64,000 bases of DNA from Pasteuria penetrans (GTDB lineage Bacteria > Bacillota > Bacilli > Thermoactinomycetales > Thermoactinomycetaceae). The stretch covers positions 1,798,001 through 1,862,000 of the forward strand of contig NZ_UZAC03000001.1 of NCBI RefSeq assembly GCF_900538055.1, in the 5' to 3' direction. Of the stretch, positions 8,880-60,619 are shown piece by piece (the first letter of the stretch is position 1; each line of letters starts with the position of its first letter). A program made the position numbers and the translations under genes. The notes under the pieces are model-generated. The model did not search any database and was not told where the DNA came from. It was given only the letters and a program-made list of their open reading frames with translations.

Positions 8880-9005
8880 GTGTGTCAAGAAGTCGTTCAA
8901 GAAATGAAGGTTGCTCGGCCCTTCGTAACCGGCTGGTAGGTAGCAGGTTACAAACCGCCTAGTGCTGTGTGTCAAGAAGTCGTTCAAGAGATGAAGGTTG
9001 CTCGG
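8880..9005 (+). mobile_element. Group II intron 5' ends, one inside another
   Basis: Bases 8880-8966 are the first 87 nt of the intron family seen at 13830 and 53375 (GTGTG start, ending AGTGCT). At exactly that point a second intron 5' end begins (8967-9005) and is cut off. This is the same internal insertion site (site A) used in the large array. Confidence 0.8.
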
Positions 9006-9140
9006 CTCGGGGACGGTCAGATCTTTCTGTACGGAACCTCTGTACGTCAAAAACCCTGCTCCAGCAAGGAGCAGGGTTTTATTTGTTTAAAAATGTTAAT
9101 TGGGAATCCAACCCGAATCCTGTATCTATCTATTCAGGAC
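9006..9140. repeat. Inverted duplicate of 18712-18870
   Basis: The stretch from GGGACGGTCAGATCTTTCTG through the hairpin terminator to AATCCTGTATCTATCT is present in reverse complement at 18712-18870 with scattered substitutions. Together with the direct duplication this shows complex rearrangement of the locus. Confidence 0.75.
9050..9080 (+). terminator. Rho-independent terminator
   Basis: AAACCCTGCTCC pairs perfectly with GGAGCAGGGTTT around AGCAA, followed by T-rich sequence. It could end transcription from the secreted-protein gene on the plus strand. The inverted copy near 18790-18822 has mismatches in the stem. Confidence 0.8.
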
Positions 9141-13829: not shown

Positions 13830-15702
13830 GTGTGTCAAGAAGTCGGTCAAGAGATGAAGGTTGCTCGGCCCTTCGTAACCGGCTGATAGGTAGCAGGTTA
13901 CAAACCGCCTAGTGCTGCTGGGGTTAAATGCCTTGGTTGTGAGCGATCTAGGAAAAGGCAGGGCATGACCCTGTCAGGTGGGAATCGGGGAGATCAGCGA
14001 AAGCGAACCGTTCGAAGACGCATCGAAAAATGTAGTCCATGTCAAAACCGATGTGGGTATCGGACGTCGGGATGAACCGTGGGGGGCGACCTATCTTCTG
14101 CCCCGGTGGCATGCGGTGTATAGGCGGGATGAACCCGATTTAGGCTCTTGATCGGAACTTGAGAGATCGTCGTACGGCGTCTGGCTGTCGCCAGATGTAA
14201 AGACCGAGGGCTAACCGAGGTTCCGTGCACGAAGTCGGATCAACCCATAGTAGTGTAGAAGCTTCTGTAATGGAAGTGGAGCGAAGGGGTTGAATTGCCT
14301 GCATGTTTCAGAGAAGTACAGCAACTTGGATGGAAATTACCGGAAGAGGAGACTGGTATGAAGCAAGCAACATCGGACCAAAATCCAGACAGATACAATA
14401 TACAGCAGAAAGAGGTACTGAAGGCGTGGCATCAGGTAATGTCTAACGATGGAGGTCCTGGAGTGGATCAGCAGACGATTACCGCATTCGCATACGATCT
14501 GAGAAGTAATTTGTATGTGATATGGAATCAACTCTGCGCAGGATCCTACTTCCCCTCCAAGGTTAGGCGTGTGTGGATTCCCAAGTCATGCGGTGGAAAA
14601 AGGCCACTTGGCATACCCACGGTAGCAGACCGGGTAGCCCAGACGGTAATAAAGAATCGGCTTGAGCCTCTCCTAGAGACCCACTTTCATGGAGATTCCT
14701 ATGGATGTCGCCCCAAGAGATCAGCGCATCAGGCGTTACGTGTAACCCGTGAGCGCTGTTGGGAGTACGACTGGGGAATCGACCTCGACATAGTGGGCTT
14801 CTTTGACAACATTCCGCATCACCTCATTTTGAGGGCCCTTGAGCACGTTGGGGCGGATAAAGTAACGTTACTCTATTGCAAGAGGTGGCTTAAGGCACCG
14901 GTATTATTACCTGATGGGACGAGCGAGGAAAGGGTTAAGGGCACGCCGCAAGGTGGAGTCGTAAGTCCCCTCCTGGCCAATCTGTTCCTGCACTACGCTT
15001 TTGATCAATGGATAGAAACGGAGCACCCCGATATACGTTTTGCGAGGTATGTAGATGATATTATCGTCCACTGCCGGAACAAAGCGCAAGCTGAACATCT
15101 TCTTTCAGAAATTCGGCAAAGATTGGCAGAGTGCGGGCTGGAACTGCATCCGGAGAAGACCAAAATCTTCTACTGTGAAGATGATAGGCGGAACGGGAAT
15201 CATGATGTTGTTGCCTTTGATTTTCTAGGGTACGCATTCAAGGCCCGTGAGGTCAGAAGTCGTCGTACAGGGGTGAGATTTGTGGGTTTCGTACCAGCCA
15301 TAAGCCAAAAATCTAAAAGCAAGATAGCTAGGCAAGTTGGGAAGCTGGGCATCCCAAGTAGAGTGGGCATAGATCTGGAGGAGATAGCAAACCTTCTCCA
15401 TGCCAAACTCATGGGATGGCTTACCTATTATGGCGCCTTCTACCCTTCGGCCATTAGGAGTTTCTTGCGTGACCACATCGACCAAGTTCTGGCTCGATGG
15501 GCCACGAAGAAATACAAAAAGCTGAACAATTGGAAAAAGGCCCTGAGATGGGTTCGATATATACGGGGAAAGTACCGAAGGCTGTTTGTACACTGGCATC
15601 TGAATAGGACAAGATCCTAATGGGGCAATAAGAGCCGTATAATGGGAGACTATTAAGTACGGTTCTGTGAGAGGGTTGGCTGAAATGCCAGCCCTACTCG
15701 AC
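13830..15702 (+). mobile_element. Full-length ORF-bearing group II intron
   Basis: A self-splicing ribozyme and retroelement of 1873 nt. It starts GTGTG and ends with domain V (15632-15665, GAGCCGTAT...GTACGGTTC with AGC triad and GAGA loop) and a domain VI hairpin ending CTACTCGAC. Both ends are fixed by the IS3 orfB reading frame, which closes exactly when they are removed. Domain IV holds the reverse transcriptase gene. Its first ~460 nt are close to the ORF-less introns at 53375-60163, so it is a possible helper for them. Confidence 0.93.
14358..15620 (+). CDS. ltrA: Group II intron reverse transcriptase/maturase
   Basis: A 420-residue protein that assists splicing of its intron and copies it into new sites. 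ATG 14358 is chosen because AGAGGAG lies 7 nt upstream and family members start at this point (MKQATSDQN); an in-frame TTG occurs at 14295. Reverse transcriptase blocks are complete: RPLGIPTVADRVAQ, IDLDIVGFFDNI, GTPQGGVVSPLLANL, and FARYVDDIIV with the YxDD active site. The maturase thumb (GIIM type) follows. The protein ends after KKYKKLNNWKKA and RRLFVHWH with no HNH endonuclease domain, so integration would use endonuclease-independent routes. Confidence 0.95.
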   Translation: MKQATSDQNPDRYNIQQKEVLKAWHQVMSNDGGPGVDQQTITAFAYDLRSNLYVIWNQLCAGSYFPSKVRRVWIPKSCGGKRPLGIPTVADRVAQTVIKNRLEPLLETHFHGDSYGCRPKRSAHQALRVTRERCWEYDWGIDLDIVGFFDNIPHHLILRALEHVGADKVTLLYCKRWLKAPVLLPDGTSEERVKGTPQGGVVSPLLANLFLHYAFDQWIETEHPDIRFARYVDDIIVHCRNKAQAEHLLSEIRQRLAECGLELHPEKTKIFYCEDDRRNGNHDVVAFDFLGYAFKAREVRSRRTGVRFVGFVPAISQKSKSKIARQVGKLGIPSRVGIDLEEIANLLHAKLMGWLTYYGAFYPSAIRSFLRDHIDQVLARWATKKYKKLNNWKKALRWVRYIRGKYRRLFVHWHLNRTRS

Positions 15703-20263: not shown

Positions 20264-20406
20264 GTGTGTCAAGAAGTCGTTCAGAAATGAAGGTTGCTCG
20301 GCCCTTCGTAACCGGCTGGTAGGTAGCAGGTTACAAACCGCCTAGTGCTGTGTGTCAAGAAGTCGTTCAAGAGATGAAGGTTGCTCGGCCCTTCGTAACC
20401 GGCTGG
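20264..20406 (+). mobile_element. Group II intron 5' ends, one inside another (copy 2)
   Basis: 20264-20349 is an intron 5' segment of 86 nt. At its AGTGCT a second intron 5' end begins (20350-20406), which is cut by the ISL3 right end. It has the same arrangement as 8880-9005. Confidence 0.8.
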
Positions 20407-22271
20407 GGCTCTTGGCCAAACTTCGGACCCGGAATATCCTTGGGCGGTTTTTTTCTAATTCTGGATTGCAAGGATGAATTAGATGGGGCCCACTCTTCCC
20501 CATAATTAGTTTGTTTATTCAGTTTATTGTACACGAGCCCATGCCGAAGAGCATCTGTCTCTATTAATTTATAAAATAAATAAAAATAAAAGTATGTGCT
20601 TTTTTCTATTATGTATCCAAAATTATTGAATGCATTTTTATTTTATTTTATGTTTATTAAACACTATATTAATATTATGAAACATTCCGGCAATTTACCC
20701 CCTGATCGTTTTCCAAGTGGCTATTGCGACATACGATAGCAAGGTTCTCATAGTTCCTCCAAATCCGAACCCCAAAACGTTGGCGAAAGTCAAGCTTGGT
20801 GGCACAGTTCTTTCCCTCTATAAGAGCGTTGGTAGCCTTGTCTCCTCGATGGTAATTTGCAATGGACTGTTGCCCCCTCTGTAAGCTCTCTGCACCTTTT
20901 CTAATGTTCTTGTGGTCGTGCTGTAATCCTACCCCGATGAGAGCGTGCAGATTATTGTAAGCCTCGGTAAAAGTGGGATAATCGGTGTCATACCATTTTC
21001 CAACATCCTCTATAAATTCGTAGGCTTCCCCAAGTTTATGCCAATCTGCAAGATGAAATATTTTTTCCAGGAGTAGCCTCTTGGATTCGGGAAGTAATCC
21101 TCTGTGTTTTTTCTTCAGGGCGTCCTTTACGAACCCTTTGATCCTGGACAGATATTTCCAATTTTCGAGTTCCTTATACATACAGTCCACCCATTCCCGG
21201 TGCAGATGACAAGACAAATGCCAGCGGAAAACAAAGAAATCACGGGGGAAGAATTTCTCCTTTTTCTTGTAAAATGCTAACAAATCTGTAATATATTCAT
21301 ACTTATTCTTTAATTTTTCTGAACAACTAGGTAATTCATTAAGAATATTCCTCTCTTGATCGGAAAGTTCTTCTCGATAATTTTTCCATAGTAGGTCAAG
21401 TAACAATTCCTTTATGGTGGAGGCAAATCGCTTATCCCTAAGAGTGACTTTCAGAGGAGGGTGTAAGGTAAGATCCCTTATATTCTTGATGATGTGAAAG
21501 CGGTCAAACACAATAAGCGCGTTGGGGAATTCCGATAGAGCAAACTTAGTATAGGTAGGGGCTCGGTCCATGGCAATAACCGCTGGATCAAGTTCATATA
21601 GGTGGTGATTTTGCCTCTGGTAGTCCATAAGTTCCTCATATTTTCGGCCTTTTATCACAGCCAATACAGACCCAAGTTTTGTATCATAGATATAGCTTGC
21701 GTAGTTCTTACCTTTCCTTGTCGATGTATCATCTATATCGATGGTCAAACAGCGTCCCTGTTCCCTGGCCTGCCTAATGGCCTTTTCCTCGAGTTCTTTT
21801 CTCTTTCTAGGAAGAAATTCATCAAAAAATAGGGTATAACCTGTTCTCACCGGTATTCCATGTAACCTTGTTGCCTTCGCTGCTGAAGATATAACTGCCG
21901 TTGACGAGAACATTTCCCTACAAAAATCTGCATATTTTTTCCATTTCTCAACAAATGCATACACATGGTTGAATTTGTTCTCGCAGTAGGTACATCTCCA
22001 TCGTTGGGGTTTCATAACGGATTCAATTTCCCATAAGCCAAGGATGCCGTGTTTTATTTTCCGTTTCTTGTCGAATCCCGCTCTCACAAATTTTTGTCCC
22101 AAATTTCCCGAATCCTCACAGGAACACCTGATTCCCGGGGATGGACGGTTGACAATGGACTTTAGGATATAACGAATTCTCATTTTATCTGATCCTGTGG
22201 GTCCTAATTTCTCTATTTTCATGATTTTCACTTCGTCCGAAAAGGGGGGCCTTGGGAAATCTAGTTCTGTT
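20407..22271 (-). mobile_element. ISL3-family element, copy a
   Basis: The terminal repeat GGCTCTTGGCC begins at 20407 (transposase 3' side) and matches, in inverted form, the left ends of the copies at 39068 and 52434 (GGATCTTGGCC). The 5' side is cut near 22271 by a group II intron fragment, so only one terminus remains. Confidence 0.75.
20675..22231 (-). CDS. ISL3-family transposase
   Basis: A 518-residue DDE transposase, apparently intact. The N-terminal zinc-finger region has CSCEDSG and CTYCENKF (residues ~35-85). Core motifs are TIDIDDTSTRKGKNYAS (first Asp), VIAMDRAPTYTKFALSEF and LIVFDRFHIIKNI (central Asp), and DKATNALIEGKNCATKL (Glu, residue ~465). The next-to-last segment FRQRFGVRIWRNYENL is typical. 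It serves as the reference for the two broken ISL3 copies. One terminus of its element is missing, so movement is unlikely unless another copy supplies it. Confidence 0.9.
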   Translation of the reverse strand: MKIMKIEKLGPTGSDKMRIRYILKSIVNRPSPGIRCSCEDSGNLGQKFVRAGFDKKRKIKHGILGLWEIESVMKPQRWRCTYCENKFNHVYAFVEKWKKYADFCREMFSSTAVISSAAKATRLHGIPVRTGYTLFFDEFLPRKRKELEEKAIRQAREQGRCLTIDIDDTSTRKGKNYASYIYDTKLGSVLAVIKGRKYEELMDYQRQNHHLYELDPAVIAMDRAPTYTKFALSEFPNALIVFDRFHIIKNIRDLTLHPPLKVTLRDKRFASTIKELLLDLLWKNYREELSDQERNILNELPSCSEKLKNKYEYITDLLAFYKKKEKFFPRDFFVFRWHLSCHLHREWVDCMYKELENWKYLSRIKGFVKDALKKKHRGLLPESKRLLLEKIFHLADWHKLGEAYEFIEDVGKWYDTDYPTFTEAYNNLHALIGVGLQHDHKNIRKGAESLQRGQQSIANYHRGDKATNALIEGKNCATKLDFRQRFGVRIWRNYENLAIVCRNSHLENDQGVNCRNVS

Positions 22272-22714
22272 GGTTCCGTGCACGAAGTCGGATCAGCTCA
22301 TAGTAGTGTGGAAGCTTCTGTAATGGAAGTGGAGCGAAGGGGCTGACTCATCCTGAGGAGGACAGTAAAATGAAACTTTAGTGGGAGATCCGCTAGAGGA
22401 GATCACTGGAACCTCGGAGCAACATCCCTATAATCGAAGTAGGACCTAAAGGGTCTGAAGATTGGGATGGGATGAGAAGAGCTGGATGATGCGAGAGTAT
22501 CACGTCCAGTTCTGTGAGGGACTCGGCTGAAATGCCGGGTCTACTCGACGCTGGGGTCAAATGCCCTGGCTGTGAGCGATCTAGGAAAAGGCAGGGTATT
22601 TGACCCTGTCAGGTGGGAATCGGGGAGATACCGTTCGAAGACGCATCGAAAAGCGTAGTCCATGTCAAAACCGAGGTGGGGTGCTAACGTCGGGATGAAC
22701 CGTGGGGGAGCGGT
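22272..22714 (+). mobile_element. Group II intron 3' half followed by intron body resuming at site A
   Basis: 22272-22549 is the 3' half of a 667-nt type intron, ending CTACTCGAC. The next bases (22550, GCTGGGGTCAAATG) are the intron sequence that normally follows site A, and run to 22714. This is the right-hand junction of an intron once inserted at site A of another intron; the 5' parts are gone. Confidence 0.8.
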
Positions 22715-48503: not shown

Positions 48504-52334
<3,831 letters not shown>

Positions 52335-53761
52335 GGAAAACTTTTCATAGAAGGTACTGTTACACTCAGTTGGATGGGTTCGTAGGAATGTCCCCGTAGG
52401 TCTACCACAGGCCGCGGGGGCATGTTTTTTGTGGATCTTGGCCGCATATTGGACCTGGGGATTCAGTCTCGGGAGTGGGGGGTTGAACCATGTTTACATC
52501 TGCCTAGATTTGAATTCTATCCCACTGTATTCCAAGGTATTCTGGAGGGAATATATAGTAGGACACATACATTATTTTTATAAAATTTAAGTTTTATATG
52601 TTATAATCATGGGCAACTCACCCTTTATCGGGGGGACTAAGGGGCTGTCGAGATGAAAACAGGACTAAATTTTCCAAGGCCCACTTTTTCGGACGAAGTG
52701 AACATCATAAAAGAAAAATTAGGAACCACAAAATCAGATGGAATGAGTTATATTCCTAGAGTCCATTGCCAACCGTTCATCCCCGGGAATCATGTGTTTC
52801 TGTGAGGATTCGGGAAACCTGGGACAAAAATTGGTGAAAGCAGGATTAGACTAAGGAACGAAAAATAAAACACGGCATCTTTGGTTTAGGGGAAGTTGAA
52901 TCCGTTATGAAAACCCAACGATGGAAATGTATCTACTGCAGGAACAAATTCAACTATGTGCATGTATTTTTTGTAAAAGTAAATAAATATACATATCTTT
53001 GTATGTAAATGTTTTCATTAACGGCAGTACTAGTCAGCAGCGAAAGCAGAAAGGTTACATGGAATATCGGTGAGAACAGGTTATATCCTATTTTTGATGA
53101 ATTTCTTTCTAAAAAGAGAGAAGATCCCGAGGAAAAGGCTATCAGGAAAGCCAAGGAACAGGGACGTTGTGGACTATCGGTATGGATGATACATCGACGA
53201 GGGGAGGTAAGGACTGCGCAAGCTATATCGTATGATATAAAACTGGGGTCCGTATTGGCTGTGATAAAGGGCCGAAACTATTAGGAACTTGATTCGTCGG
53301 TTATTGCTATGGTCCGAGCCCAAACTTATGCCAAGTTTGCTCTATCGGAATTCCCCAATGCGCTTGTTGTGTTGTGTGTCAAGAAGTCGTTCAAGAGATG
53401 AAGGTTGCTCGGCCCTTCGTAACCGGCTGATAGGTAGCAGGTTACAAACTGCCTAGTGCTGCTGGGGTAAAGTGCCCTGGTTGTGAGCGATCTAGGAAAA
53501 GGCAGGGCATGACCCTGTCAGGTGGGAATCGGGGAAATCAGCGAAAGCGAACCGTTCGAAGACGCATCGAAAGGCGTAGTCCATGTCAAAACCGAGGTGG
53601 GGCACTAACGTCGGGATAAACCGTGAGGGACGACCTATCTTCTGCCCTGGTGGCATGCGGTGTACAGGCGGGATGTGTGTCAAGAAGTCGTTCAAGAGAT
53701 GAAGGTTGCTCGGCCCTTCGTAACCGGCTGATAGGTAGCAGGTTACAAACCGCCTAGTGCT

Positions 53762-54428
53762 GTGTGTCAAGAAGTCGTTCAAGAGATGAAGGTTGCTCGG
53801 CCCTTCGTAACCGGCTGGTAGGTAGCAGGTTACAAACTGCCTAGTGCTGCTGGGGTAAAGTGCCCTGGTTGTGAGCGATCTAGGAAAAGGCAGGGCATGA
53901 CCCTGTCAGGTGGGAATCGGGGAGATCAGCGAAAGCGAACCGTTCGAAGACGCATCGAAAGGCGTAGTCCATGTCAAAACCGAGGTGGGGCACTAACGTC
54001 GGGATAAACCGTGGGGGACGACCTATCTTCTGCCCCGGTGGCATGCGGTGTACAGGCGGGATGAACCCGATTTAGGCTCTTGGTCGGAACTTGAGAGATC
54101 GTCGTACGGCGTCCGGCTGTCGCCAGATGGAAAGACCGAGGATAAACCGAGGTTCCGTGCACGAAGTCGGATCAGCTCATAGTAGTGTGGAAGCTTCTGT
54201 AATGGGAGTGGAGCGAAGGGGCTGACTCATCCTGAGGAGGACAGTAAAATGAAACTTTAGTGGGAGATCCGCTGGAGGAGATCACTGGAACCTCGGAGCA
54301 ACATCCCTATAATCGAAGTATGACCTAAAGGGTCTGAAGATTGGGATGGGATGAGAAGAGCTGGATGATGCGAGAGTATCACGTCCAGTTCTGTGAGGGA
54401 CTCGGCTGAAATGCCGGGTCTACTCGAC
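53762..54428 (+). ncRNA. Intron U3 (type A, 667 nt)
   Basis: Uninterrupted intron at site A of U2. Domain V lies at 54358-54391 (GAGCTGGATG...GTCCAGTTC). Confidence 0.9.
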
Positions 54429-55095
54429 GTGTGTCAAGAAGTCGTTCAAGAGATGAAGGTTGCTCGGCCCTTCGTAACCGGCTGGTAGGTAGCAGGTTAC
54501 AAACTGCCTAGTGCTGCTGGGGTAAAGTGCCCTGGTTGTGAGCGATCTAGGAAAAGGCAGGGCATGACCCTGTCAGGTGGGAATCGGGGAGATCAGCGAA
54601 AGCGAACCGTTCGAAGACGCATCGAAAGGCGTAGTCCATGTCAAAACCGAGGTGGGGCACTAACGTCGGGATAAACCGTGGGGGACGACCTATCTTCTGC
54701 CCCGGTGGCATGCGGTGTACAGGCGGGATGAACCCGATTTAGGCTCTTGGTCGGAACTTGAGAGATCGTCGTACGGCGTCCGGCTGTCGCCAGATGGAAA
54801 GACCGAGGATAAACCGAGGTTCCGTGCACGAAGTCGGATCAGCTCATAGTAGTGTGGAAGCTTCTGTAATGGGAGTGGAGCGAAGGGGCTGACTCATCCT
54901 GAGGAGGACAGTAAAATGAAACTTTAGTGGGAGATCCGCTGGAGGAGATCACTGGAACCTCGGAGCAACATCCCTATAATCGAAGTATGACCTAAAGGGT
55001 CTGAAGATTGGGATGGGATGAGAAGAGCTGGATGATGCGAGAGTATCACGTCCAGTTCTGTGAGGGACTCGGCTGAAATGCCGGGTCTACTCGAC
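54429..55095 (+). ncRNA. Intron U4 (type A, 667 nt)
   Basis: Follows U3 without spacer and is nearly identical to it. Confidence 0.9.
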
Positions 55096-55762
55096 GTGTG
55101 TCAAGAAGTCGTTCAAGAGATGAAGGTTGCTCGGCCCTTCGTAACCGGCTGGTAGGTAGCAGGTTACAAACTGCCTAGTGCTGCTGGGGTAAAGTGCCCT
55201 GGTTGTGAGCGATCTAGGAAAAGGCAGGGCATGACCCTGTCAGGTGGGAATCGGGGAGATCAGCGAAAGCGAACCGTTCGAAGACGCATCGAAAGGCGTA
55301 GTCCATGTCAAAACCGAGGTGGGGCACTAACGTCGGGATAAACCGTGGGGGACGACCTATCTTCTGCCCCGGTGGCATGCGGTGTACAGGCGGGATGAAC
55401 CCGATTTAGGCTCTTGGTCGGAACTTGAGAGATCGTCGTACGGCGTCCGGCTGTCGCCAGATGGAAAGACCGAGGATAAACCGAGGTTCCGTGCACGAAG
55501 TCGGATCAGCTCATAGTAGTGTGGAAGCTTCTGTAATGGGAGTGGAGCGAAGGGGCTGACTCATCCTGAGGAGGACAGTAAAATGAAACTTTAGTGGGAG
55601 ATCCGCTGGAGGAGATCACTGGAACCTCGGAGCAACATCCCTATAATCGAAGTATGACCTAAAGGGTCTGAAGATTGGGATGGGATGAGAAGAGCTGGAT
55701 GATGCGAGAGTATCACGTCCAGTTCTGTGAGGGACTCGGCTGAAATGCCGGGTCTACTCGAC
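55096..55762 (+). ncRNA. Intron U5 (type A, 667 nt)
   Basis: Third of the tandem trio. The next base resumes U2 after its site A (GCTGGTGTGG). Confidence 0.9.
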
Positions 55763-56064
55763 GCTGGTGTGGAAACACCCCGGTGGTGAGCGATCTAGGA
55801 AAAGGCAGGGCATGACCCTGTCAGGTGGGAATCGGGGAGATCAGCGAAAGCGAACCAGCCGAAGACGCATCGAAAGGTATAGTCCATGTCAAAACCGATG
55901 TGGGTCCCGAACGTCGGGATGAACCGTGGGGGATGACCTATCTACTGCCCCGGTGGCATGCGGTGTTCAGGCGGGATGTGTGTCAAGAAGTCGTTCAAGA
56001 GATGAAGGTTGCTCGGCCCTTCGTAACCGGCTGATAGGTAGCAGGTTACAAACCGCCTAGTGCT

Positions 56065-56731
56065 GTGTGTCAAGAAGTCGTTCAAGAGATGAAGGTTGCT
56101 CGGCCCTTCGTAACCGGCTGGTAGGTAGCAGGTTACAAACTGCCTAGTGCTGCTGGGGTAAAGTGCCCTGGTTGTGAGCGATCTAGGAAAAGGCAGGGCA
56201 TGACCCTGTCAGGTGGGAATCGGGGAGATCAGCGAAAGCGAACCGTTCGAAGACGCATCGAAAGGCGTAGTCCATGTCAAAACCGAGGTGGGGCACTAAC
56301 GTCGGGATAAACCGTGGGGGACGACCTATCTTCTGCCCCGGTGGCATGCGGTGTACAGGCGGGATGAACCCGATTTAGGCTCTTGGTCGGAACTTGAGAG
56401 ATCGTCGTACGGCGTCCGGCTGTCGCCAGATGGAAAGACCGAGGATAAACCGAGGTTCCGTGCACGAAGTCGGATCAGCTCATAGTAGTGTGGAAGCTTC
56501 TGTAATGGGAGTGGAGCGAAGGGGCTGACTCATCCTGAGGAGGACAGTAAAATGAAACTTTAGTGGGAGATCCGCTGGAGGAGATCACTGGAACCTCGGA
56601 GCAACATCCCTATAATCGAAGTATGACCTAAAGGGTCTGAAGATTGGGATGGGATGAGAAGAGCTGGATGATGCGAGAGTATCACGTCCAGTTCTGTGAG
56701 GGACTCGGCTGAAATGCCGGGTCTACTCGAC
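56065..56731 (+). ncRNA. Intron U7 (type A, 667 nt)
   Basis: Uninterrupted intron at site A of U6. Confidence 0.9.
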
Positions 56732-57398
56732 GTGTGTCAAGAAGTCGTTCAAGAGATGAAGGTTGCTCGGCCCTTCGTAACCGGCTGGTAGGTAGCAGGT
56801 TACAAACTGCCTAGTGCTGCTGGGGTAAAGTGCCCTGGTTGTGAGCGATCTAGGAAAAGGCAGGGCATGACCCTGTCAGGTGGGAATCGGGGAGATCAGC
56901 GAAAGCGAACCGTTCGAAGACGCATCGAAAGGCGTAGTCCATGTCAAAACCGAGGTGGGGCACTAACGTCGGGATAAACCGTGGGGGACGACCTATCTTC
57001 TGCCCCGGTGGCATGCGGTGTACAGGCGGGATGAACCCGATTTAGGCTCTTGGTCGGAACTTGAGAGATCGTCGTACGGCGTCCGGCTGTCGCCAGATGG
57101 AAAGACCGAGGATAAACCGAGGTTCCGTGCACGAAGTCGGATCAGCTCATAGTAGTGTGGAAGCTTCTGTAATGGGAGTGGAGCGAAGGGGCTGACTCAT
57201 CCTGAGGAGGACAGTAAAATGAAACTTTAGTGGGAGATCCGCTGGAGGAGATCACTGGAACCTCGGAGCAACATCCCTATAATCGAAGTATGACCTAAAG
57301 GGTCTGAAGATTGGGATGGGATGAGAAGAGCTGGATGATGCGAGAGTATCACGTCCAGTTCTGTGAGGGACTCGGCTGAAATGCCGGGTCTACTCGAC
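56732..57398 (+). ncRNA. Intron U8 (type A, 667 nt)
   Basis: Joined directly to U7. The following base resumes U6. Confidence 0.9.
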
Positions 57399-58422
57399 GC
57401 TGGTGTGGAAACACCCCGGTGGTGAGCGATCTAGGAAAAGGCAGGGCATGACCCTGTCAGGTGGGAATCGGGGAGATCAGCGAAAGCGAACCAGCCGAAG
57501 ACGCATCGAAAGGAATAGTCCATGTCAAAACCGATGTGGGTCCCGAACGTCGGGATGAACCGTGGGGGATGACCTATCTACTGCCCCGGTGGCATGCGGT
57601 GTTCAGGCGGGATGAACCCGATTTAGGCTCTTGATCGGAACTTGAGAGATCGTCGTACGGCGTCTGGCTGCCGCCAGATGGAAAGACCGAGGACAACCGA
57701 GGTCCCGTGCACGAAGTCGGATCAGCTCATAGTAGTGAGGAAGCTTCTGTAATGGAAGTGGAGCGAAGGGGCTGACTCATCCTGCGGAGGACAGTTAGAT
57801 GAGAACTTTAGCGGGAGATCCGCTGGAGGAGATCAAACGACAACTTTAGTGGAGATCCACTATAGGAGGTCACTGGAACCTCGGAGCAACATCCCCATAA
57901 TCGAAGTAGGGCCTAAAGGGTCTGAAGATTGGGATGGGATGAGAAGAGCCGGATGATGCGAGAGTATCATGTCCGGATCTGTGAGGGACTCGGCTGAAAT
58001 GCCGGGTCTACTCGACGAACCCGATTTAGGCTCTTGATCGGAACTTGAGAGATCGTCGTACGGCGTCTGGCTGTCGCCAGATGTATAAAGACCGAGGACA
58101 AACCGAGGTTCCGTGCACGAAGTCGGATCAGCTCATAGTAGTGAGGAAGCTTCTGTAATGGAAGTGGAGCGAAGGGGCTGACTCATCCTGCGGAGGACAG
58201 TTAGATGAGAACTTTAGCGGGAGATCCGCTGGAGGAGATCAAACGACAACTTTAGTGGAGATCCACTATAGGAGGTCACTGGAACCTCGGAGCAACATCC
58301 CCATAATCGAAGTAGGACCTAAAGGGTCTGAAGATTGGGATGGGATGAGAAGAGCCGGATGATGCGAGAGTATCATGTCCGGATCTGTGAGGGACTCGGC
58401 TGAAATGCCGGGTCTACTCGAC

Positions 58423-59797
58423 GTGTGTCAAGAAGTCGTTCAAGAGATGAAGGTTGCTCGGCCCTTCGTAACCGGCTGATAGGTAGCAGGTTACAAACCG
58501 CCTAGTGCTGTGTGTCAAGAAGTCGTTCAAGAGATGAAGGTTGCTCGGCCCTTCGTAACCGGCTGGTAGGTAGCAGGTTACAAACTGCCTAGTGCTGCTG
58601 GGGTAAAGTGCCCTGGTTGTGAGCGATCTAGGAAAAGGCAGGGCATGACCCTGTCAGGTGGGAATCGGGGAGATCAGCGAAAGCGAACCGTTCGAAGACG
58701 CATCGAAAGGCGTAGTCCATGTCAAAACCGAGGTGGGGCACTAACGTCGGGATAAACCGTGGGGGACGACCTATCTTCTGCCCCGGTGGCATGCGGTGTA
58801 CAGGCGGGATGAACCCGATTTAGGCTCTTGGTCGGAACTTGAGAGATCGTCGTACGGCGTCCGGCTGTCGCCAGATGGAAAGACCGAGGATAAACCGAGG
58901 TTCCGTGCACGAAGTCGGATCAGCTCATAGTAGTGTGGAAGCTTCTGTAATGGGAGTGGAGCGAAGGGGCTGACTCATCCTGAGGAGGACAGTAAAATGA
59001 AACTTTAGTGGGAGATCCGCTGGAGGAGATCACTGGAACCTCGGAGCAACATCCCTATAATCGAAGTATGACCTAAAGGGTCTGAAGATTGGGATGGGAT
59101 GAGAAGAGCTGGATGATGCGAGAGTATCACGTCCAGTTCTGTGAGGGACTCGGCTGAAATGCCGGGTCTACTCGACGCTGGTGTGGAAACACCCCGGTGG
59201 TGAGCGATCTGGGAAAAGGCAGGGCATGACCCTGTCAGGTGGGAATCGGGGAGATCAGCGAAAGCGAACCAGCCGAAGACGCATCGAAAGGTATAGTCCA
59301 TGTCAAAACCGATGTGGGTCCCGAACGTCGGGATGAACCGTGGGGGATGACCTATCTACTGCCCCGGTGGCATGCGGTGTTCAGGCGGGATGAACCCGAT
59401 GTAGGCTCTTGATCGGAACTTGAGAGATCGTCGTACGGCGTCTGGCTGTCGCCAGATGTATAAAGACCGAGGACAAACCGAGGTTCCGTGCACGAAGTCG
59501 GATCAGCTCATAGTAGTGAGGAAGCTTCTGTAATGGAAGTGGAGCGAAGGGGCTGACTCATCCTGCGGAGGACAGTTAGATGAGAACTTTAGCGGGAGAT
59601 CCGCTGGAGGAGATCAAACGACAACTTTAGTGGAGATCCACTATAGGAGGTCACTGGAACCTCGGAGCAACATCCCCATAATCGAAGTAGGACCTAAAGG
59701 GTCTGAAGATTGGGATGGGATGAGAAGAGCCGGATGATGCGAGAGTATCATGTCCGGATCTGTGAGGGACTCGGCTGAAATGCCGGGTCTACTCGAC
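58423..59797 (+). ncRNA. Intron U9 (type B, interrupted once)
   Basis: 58423-58509 and 59177-59797 (708 nt), directly after U2 inside site B of U1. Its site A holds U10. Confidence 0.88.
58510..59176 (+). ncRNA. Intron U10 (type A, 667 nt)
   Basis: Uninterrupted intron at site A of U9. Confidence 0.9.
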
Positions 59798-60619
59798 GAA
59801 CCCGATTTAGGCTCTTGGTCGGAACTTGAGAGATCGTCGTACGGCGTCTGGCTGTCGCCAGATGAAAAGACCGAGGATAAACCAAGGTTCCGTGCACGAA
59901 GTCGGATCAGCTCATAGTAGTGAGGAAGCTTCTGTAATGGAAGTGGAGCGAAGGGTCTGACTCATCCTGAGGAGGACAGTAAAATGAAACTCTAGTGGGA
60001 GATCCGCTAGAGGAGATCACTGGAACCTCGGAGCAACATCCCTATAATCGAAGTATGACCTAAAGGGTCTGAAGATTGGGATGGGATGAGAAGAGCTGGA
60101 TGATGCGAGAGTATCACGTCCAGTTCTGTGAGGGACTCGGCTGAAATGCCGGGTCTACTCGACGGACCGCTTTCACATCATCAAGAATATAAGAGATCCT
60201 ACACCCTCTTCTGAAAGTCGCTCTTAGGGATAAGCGATTCGCTTCCATTATCAAGGAATTGTTCCCCGCCCTGCTTGGAAAAATGATTGGGGGGAACCCT
60301 CCGATCGAAAGGAGAATATTATTAATGAATTACTTATTGTTTCAAAAAATTAAATAATAAGAATGAATATATTACATATTTATTAGTGTTTTATAGGAAA
60401 AAGGAGAAGTTCTTCTCCCTCGATTTTCCCCCGTGATTTCTTCGTCTTCCGCTGGTCTTTGTCTTGTTCTCTGCACTGGGAATGGGTCGATTGTATGCGT
60501 GCGTGAAGAACCCAAAAATGGGAAATACTTGTCCAGGATCAAAGGGTTCGTAAGGGACGCCCTAAAGAAAAAATACGGGGGGTTACTTCCCGAATCCAAA
60601 GGGCTATTCCTGGGGAAAA

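Follow-up and report, generated by a model that had tools for sequence, protein, structure and literature searches.

A nested and tandem array of ten ORF-less group II introns inside a decayed transposase gene of Pasteuria penetrans

The window studied here, that is, the whole stretch of 64,000 nucleotides of the Pasteuria penetrans genome that was analysed, contains group II introns placed inside and directly behind one another, which raises the question of how so many copies came to occupy a single site. The array extends from 53374 to 60163 (6,790 bp), and parsing by intron ends resolved it into ten ORF-less introns with zero bases left over, each of the ten 5' ends (GTGTGTCAAGAAGTCG...) being paired with one of the ten 3' ends (...GGGTCTACTCGAC) like opening and closing brackets. 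A sequence-only reading had proposed ten introns and predicted ten domains V, and the Rfam search found exactly that number (RF00029) inside the array, with scores of 56.5 to 60.3 bits against a cut-off of 40 in 10/10 units. All units begin with GTGTG and end with GAC, which fits the GUGYG 5' end and AY 3' end criterion, and none carries an ORF, as already stated in that reading. The Rfam D1-D4 motif was detected seven times; it covers intron positions ~27 to 150 and is missing in U2, U6, and U9 because these three are split at position 87. The array is thus confirmed as a real feature, with the following components (A and B are two subfamilies, B' a variant of B).

52853..53373, plus strand: 5' exon, decayed ISL3-family transposase (tblastn with P0006, PF01610)
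53374..60163, plus strand: U1, whole extent (parse)
53374..53674, plus strand: U1 5' part, subfamily A, nt 1-301, outermost intron (parse, in-frame flanking transposase)
53675..58422, plus strand: U2, whole extent (parse)
53675..53761, plus strand: U2 part 1, subfamily B, nt 1-87, inserted after CAGGCGGGAT of U1 (parse)
53762..54428, plus strand: U3, intact 667-nt A, inserted after CCGCCTAGTGCT of U2 (parse, Rfam)
54429..55095, plus strand: U4, intact A, abutting the 3' end of U3 (parse, junction search)
55096..55762, plus strand: U5, intact A, abutting the 3' end of U4 (parse, junction search)
55763..55977, plus strand: U2 part 2, nt 88-302 (parse)
55978..58016, plus strand: U6, whole extent (parse)
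55978..56064, plus strand: U6 part 1, B', nt 1-87, EBS2 GAATA, inserted after TGTTCAGGCGGGAT of U2 (parse, EBS2 comparison)
56065..56731, plus strand: U7, intact A, inserted after CCGCCTAGTGCT of U6 (parse)
56732..57398, plus strand: U8, intact A, abutting the 3' end of U7 (parse, junction search)
57399..58016, plus strand: U6 part 2, nt 88-705, with domain V (parse, Rfam)
58017..58422, plus strand: U2 part 3, nt 303-708, with domain V (parse, Rfam, identity to C1:434523-435230)
58423..59797, plus strand: U9, whole extent (parse)
58423..58509, plus strand: U9 part 1, B, nt 1-87, abutting U2, in the 301 site of U1 (parse, junction search)
58510..59176, plus strand: U10, intact A, inserted after CCGCCTAGTGCT of U9 (parse)
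59177..59797, plus strand: U9 part 2, nt 88-708, with domain V (parse, Rfam)
59798..60163, plus strand: U1 3' part, nt 302-667, with domain V/VI (parse, Rfam)
60164..60608, plus strand: 3' exon, same ISL3 pseudogene, frame continuing as NALVVL/DRFHIIKN (junction translation, tblastn)

U1 therefore holds U2 and U9; U2 holds U3, U4, and U5 together with U6; U6 holds U7 and U8; and U9 holds U10. Head-to-tail blocks are formed by U3-U5 (53762-55762) and U7-U8 (56065-57398). The order U1 > U2 > U6 > U7/U8 agrees with the one read earlier from the sequence, where "three deep" has to be understood as four introns on one line. The six intact units, given there as 667 nt each, are indeed of this size and 100% identical. 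Once joined, the four interrupted units measure 667 (U1), 708 (U2), 705 (U6), and 708 nt (U9) and align with the intact ones from end to end, gap-free at the joints. Their number and the upper end of the reported 666 to 708 nt stand, and U1 is corrected to 667 nt since the array starts at 53374 and not at 53375 (6,789 bp): joining 53373 to 60164 gives EFPNALVVL/DRFHIIKNIRD in one frame. The joined segment matches the ISL3-family transposase P0006 (PF01610), encoded elsewhere in the window, and the interrupted pseudogene has several other stops. The window also codes, at 48504-52334, for a collagen-like protein of 1,276 aa (PF01391) with GPVGDTGPT repeats; collagen-like proteins are typical of spore surfaces in Bacillota such as Pasteuria.

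The joined U2 is letter for letter the uninterrupted intron found at C1:434523-435230, so the nesting arose, almost certainly, by insertion. Exact removal of the inner introns restores the U2 sequence and removal of U1 restores the transposase frame, which is what defines a twintron. Both insertion points recur at many loci with differing flanks, giving the parse independent support.

What would direct the insertions appears from the comparison of the units, which fall into two subfamilies; neither these nor their target pairing had been noticed before. Type A comprises U1, U3-U5, U7, U8, and U10 (667 nt), with U1 98.2% identical to the six identical copies, and type B comprises U2, U6, and U9 (705-708 nt), which are 99% identical among themselves and 94% to A. 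The divergence between A and B is greatest in the exon-binding segments. EBS1 of A is GGCACTA and pairs with TAGTGCT; EBS1 of B is GTCCCG and pairs with CGGGAT. Both targets lie in D1 of the introns themselves, at intron positions 81-87 and 296-301, and are exactly the two insertion points of the array: A is inserted after TAGTGCT in D1 of B, and B after CGGGAT in D1 of A or B. EBS1/IBS1 pairing is 7/7 for A (U3, U7, and U10) and 6/6 for B (U2 and U6), counting one G-U in each, and these five units show strong pairing for EBS1/IBS1 and EBS2/IBS2 together. U1 pairs at 6/7 for EBS1 and weakly for EBS2. The tandem copies, now preceded by ...CTCGAC, match their present flank in EBS1 at only 2/7 (A) or 4/6 (B) positions; with the preceding copy taken out, the match is full.

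EBS2 co-varies with the host intron in 15/16 B copies, the exception being the copy at C1:2104609: all copies with EBS2 GAATA (4/4) lie at host TGTTC, and 11/12 of those with GTATA lie at TGTA[C/T] (Fisher p=0.003, ignoring relatedness). For EBS3, insertions of A and B are followed by G at +1 and those of the ORF-bearing copies by A, and no column co-varied cleanly with this base. All 11 A-identical copies are located after CCGCCTAGTGCT inside another intron or right behind such a copy. Among the position-87 sites, CCGCC is occupied in 11/34, and CTGCC, the version carried by A itself through a C-to-T difference at position 77, in 0/19; this suggests that A avoids invading itself, a comparison confounded by the fact that 11/19 of the CTGCC sites belong to the youngest copies. 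Domain V differs as well, with nearly all B copies (for example, window 57944-58016, 58350-58422, and 59725-59797) having AGC/GAU, with a G-A pair, in the triad helix, and A and the ORF-bearing introns GUU, with a G-U pair. This G-A pair could weaken catalysis in B, which despite it is present in many near-identical copies.

Full-length relatives that code for a protein are present in the same genome, one of them within the window.

13830..15702, plus strand: full-length ORF-bearing intron of the same family, 1,873 nt, one of three intact copies (Rfam, sequence comparison)
14295..15620, plus strand: intron-encoded protein, RT and maturase (domain profile searches)

The three copies are identical and share 94% identity with A over their first 464 nt. 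In domain profile searches the intron-encoded protein showed RVT_1 and GIIM only (TIGR04416, 385 bits), with no endonuclease domain found. It is 51% identical to a 419-aa Sinorhizobium meliloti LtrA, and the A intron is ~69% identical over 315 nt to the DNA beside that LtrA gene; by pairwise similarity, the family would be assigned to the RmInt1-like class D (IIB3). The ORF-bearing intron is the likely source of an RT that, by analogy with Thermosynechococcus elongatus, may act in trans on A and B (PMC2882425).

The array is part of a much larger intron population. Across the four contigs of the genome (2.52 Mb), 117 domain V matches reach E<=0.001, and 90 of these exceed the Rfam cut-off; under stricter filters the genome has 87, compared with 0 to 11 in 40 relatives. 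In a 2022 survey the maximum was 101, in Arthrospira platensis, with three or fewer in most genomes (PMC8919778). Within the 41 other genomes of the order that were searched, the intron has no close relative. We surveyed nesting in 40 stretches around domain V matches plus the window and found 28 occupied intron-in-intron sites, 12 at position 87 and 16 at position 301. One array, C1:638179-641594 (within 637.9-641.7 kb), has the form A{B{A,B'{A}}} and is bordered by the C-terminal codons of the intron-encoded protein of a further decayed intron (...NVLAWWA/GKKYK...), with a decayed domain V/VI after them; lying inside the remnants of this further intron, it brings the nesting there to five levels. 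At C1:1438.4-1440.1 kb there is a truncated chain of four levels. Depth alone, which had been called exceptional, does not set the window array apart, given five levels elsewhere in the genome and up to five introns in Methanosarcina acetivorans. Its distinguishing features are the number of units (ten), the spacer-less tandems, and two subfamilies that target each other's D1.

Other arrangements of these elements occur as well. A third nesting site is used by A-like introns within the frame of the intron-encoded protein (..NVLAWWA/RKKYKK..) at C1:438620, C1:638179, and C3:97319. In the window, one intron nests in a second at position 87 (20264-22549) and in turn has an ISL3-type transposase ORF (20675-22231, minus strand) inserted in it, so that mobile elements are mutually inserted, and 8880-9010 holds a truncated twintron start, with 87 nt of one intron and the first ~45 nt of a second followed by unrelated sequence. 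Domain VI occurs in 36-nt head-to-tail units, each ending in ..CTACTCGAC, at locus L033 (six units; C1:1417500-1421500, minus strand, ~2640-2860 of the reverse complement) and also at L031, L041, and L053, giving multiple possible 3' splice sites. These resemble the repeated DV/VI of Clostridium tetani C.te.I1, except that DVI alone is repeated.

The 638-kb array shares the B{A,B'{A}} core with the window array, and its outer B is identical to U2. This would be expected if whole nested units, a B with its A and B', had been retrohomed or copied as one to several loci, an explanation that we consider very unlikely. The B' of the 638-kb array differs from U6 at nine columns and the outer B copies at none, the reverse of what joint copying would leave, and the identical B also exists uninterrupted. 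The shared topology points instead to separate insertions that reused the same target.

There are four spacer-less tandem junctions, all in the window array; a search that tolerated three mismatches found none in the rest of the genome. The reversed-pattern control gave zero matches, which excludes chance. An exact search for the junctions in viral contigs gave no match, and a literature search confined to papers available without subscription found no spacer-less tandem group II introns. Tandems occur at 3/5 occupied sites in the window array versus 0/23 elsewhere (p=0.003, post hoc), a clustering that simple serial homing would not predict and that hints either that local recombination or conversion acted too or that there is an assembly problem. 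If only the nesting were due to retrohoming, a single rare A-A dimer could have been spread, or extended in length, through unequal crossing-over and gene conversion inside the array, for which the A copies (100% identical) and the U2/U6 site flanks (~99%) would be ideal substrates, and the restriction of tandems to this array fits. We regard this as possible, in a tentative way. Exchange between non-tandem copies makes no new exact CTACTCGAC/GTGTG junction, nor does it keep the bracket balance, and so at least one A-A and at least one B-B junction still require insertion. Moreover, U9 resembles B copies elsewhere more than it does U2: the two positions at which it departs from U2 both carry variants found in B copies at other loci, so the U2-U9 tandem would derive from two sources and, on this comparison, is probably not a local duplication. 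The identical A copies, for their part, cannot be ranked in age by sequence. The earlier proposal of serial retrohoming, unequal recombination, or both holds up.

It is also conceivable that identical 667-nt copies were wrongly multiplied or joined during assembly, with six of them in 6.8 kb and tandem junctions in this array alone. We consider this unlikely, as the 2.19-Mb contig spans more than 80 related introns and three identical 1.87-kb copies, implying long reads, and as the units are all complete and bracket-balanced, with the same two interruption points at many uniquely flanked loci. Finally, the layout would force an order of splicing and might be taken for an adapted array with a host function, such as staged splicing that regulates the interrupted gene; the gene in question, a decayed IS transposase, contains several stops and has no evident product to regulate, and we give this idea almost no credence.

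The array was very probably built by serial retrohoming of ORF-less RmInt1-like introns with an endonuclease-less RT provided in trans. An old A-type intron, U1, would have entered the ISL3 transposase gene first. A B-type intron, whose EBS1 and EBS2 fit a D1 stretch conserved in A and B, would then have retrohomed into U1, after which B', a variant with the matching EBS2 change, may have entered a B copy. A introns would have retrohomed into D1 of the B copies, the RT being supplied by the intact ORF-bearing relatives, and with every insertion the other subfamily would gain a further target. Tandem copies are possible under serial retrohoming because the 5' exon holds the recognition sequence and the first 3'-exon base, G, is also intron base 1. 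An occupied site (TAGTGCT/GTGTG) would still be a target for reinsertion in front of the previous copy, so that the most upstream copy of a tandem would be the youngest, and gene conversion or unequal crossing-over may then spread or lengthen tandems. At the RNA level, the array would be dismantled from the inside outwards, with tandem copies removed 5' to 3', since the preceding copy must be gone before U4, U5, U8, and U9 again have a 5' exon that matches. We see about an even chance for the broader idea that mutual targeting and site reuse make the array self-propagating, with a strict splicing order and with A spared by the C-to-T change at position 77.

Nested arrays in M. acetivorans were reportedly described by Dai and Zimmerly in 2003. 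In the available parts of two later sources, they are attributed to repeated homing and reach up to five introns (PMC4424553, PMC2882425); by comparison with what these parts describe, the present case has ten introns per array, a bacterium rather than an archaeon, two subfamilies aimed at each other's D1, EBS2-host co-variation, and spacer-less tandems. The TeI4/TeI3 twintrons of T. elongatus (28 copies) likewise consist of identical ORF-less inner introns in diverged outer ones with an RT in trans, and they spread through EBS divergence and insertion into other mobile elements (PMC2882425). They have a single level, however, with the inner intron between two ATGs of the DIV ORF (PMC2882425), whereas the present nests lie in D1, run to as many as four or five levels, and include tandems. 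Introns of the RmInt1 type (IIB3/class D) have no endonuclease and insert at replication forks, and RmInt1/RmInt2 of S. meliloti also home into IS elements; the available part of that source does not describe nested or tandem arrays for them (PMC5894124), and most of the introns described here lack an ORF. In the bacterium Trichodesmium, stepwise splicing of a twintron, beginning with the inner intron, has been shown in vivo; that twintron consists of two ORF-bearing introns of distant relationship, nested once within a protein gene (PMC4649490). The nesting principle is known from an archaeon; unusual here are the size of the array, targeting in both directions, and copies set head to tail.

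If this reading is true, one genome reaches ~90 group II introns in 2.5 Mb by introns serving as mutual landing sites, which would be a model for how intron-rich genomes can arise without damage to host genes. EBS2 variants that occur naturally and fit the host subtype would offer a ready test of retargeting, and the tandem copies a clean test of ordered splicing and of the reuse of an occupied homing site.
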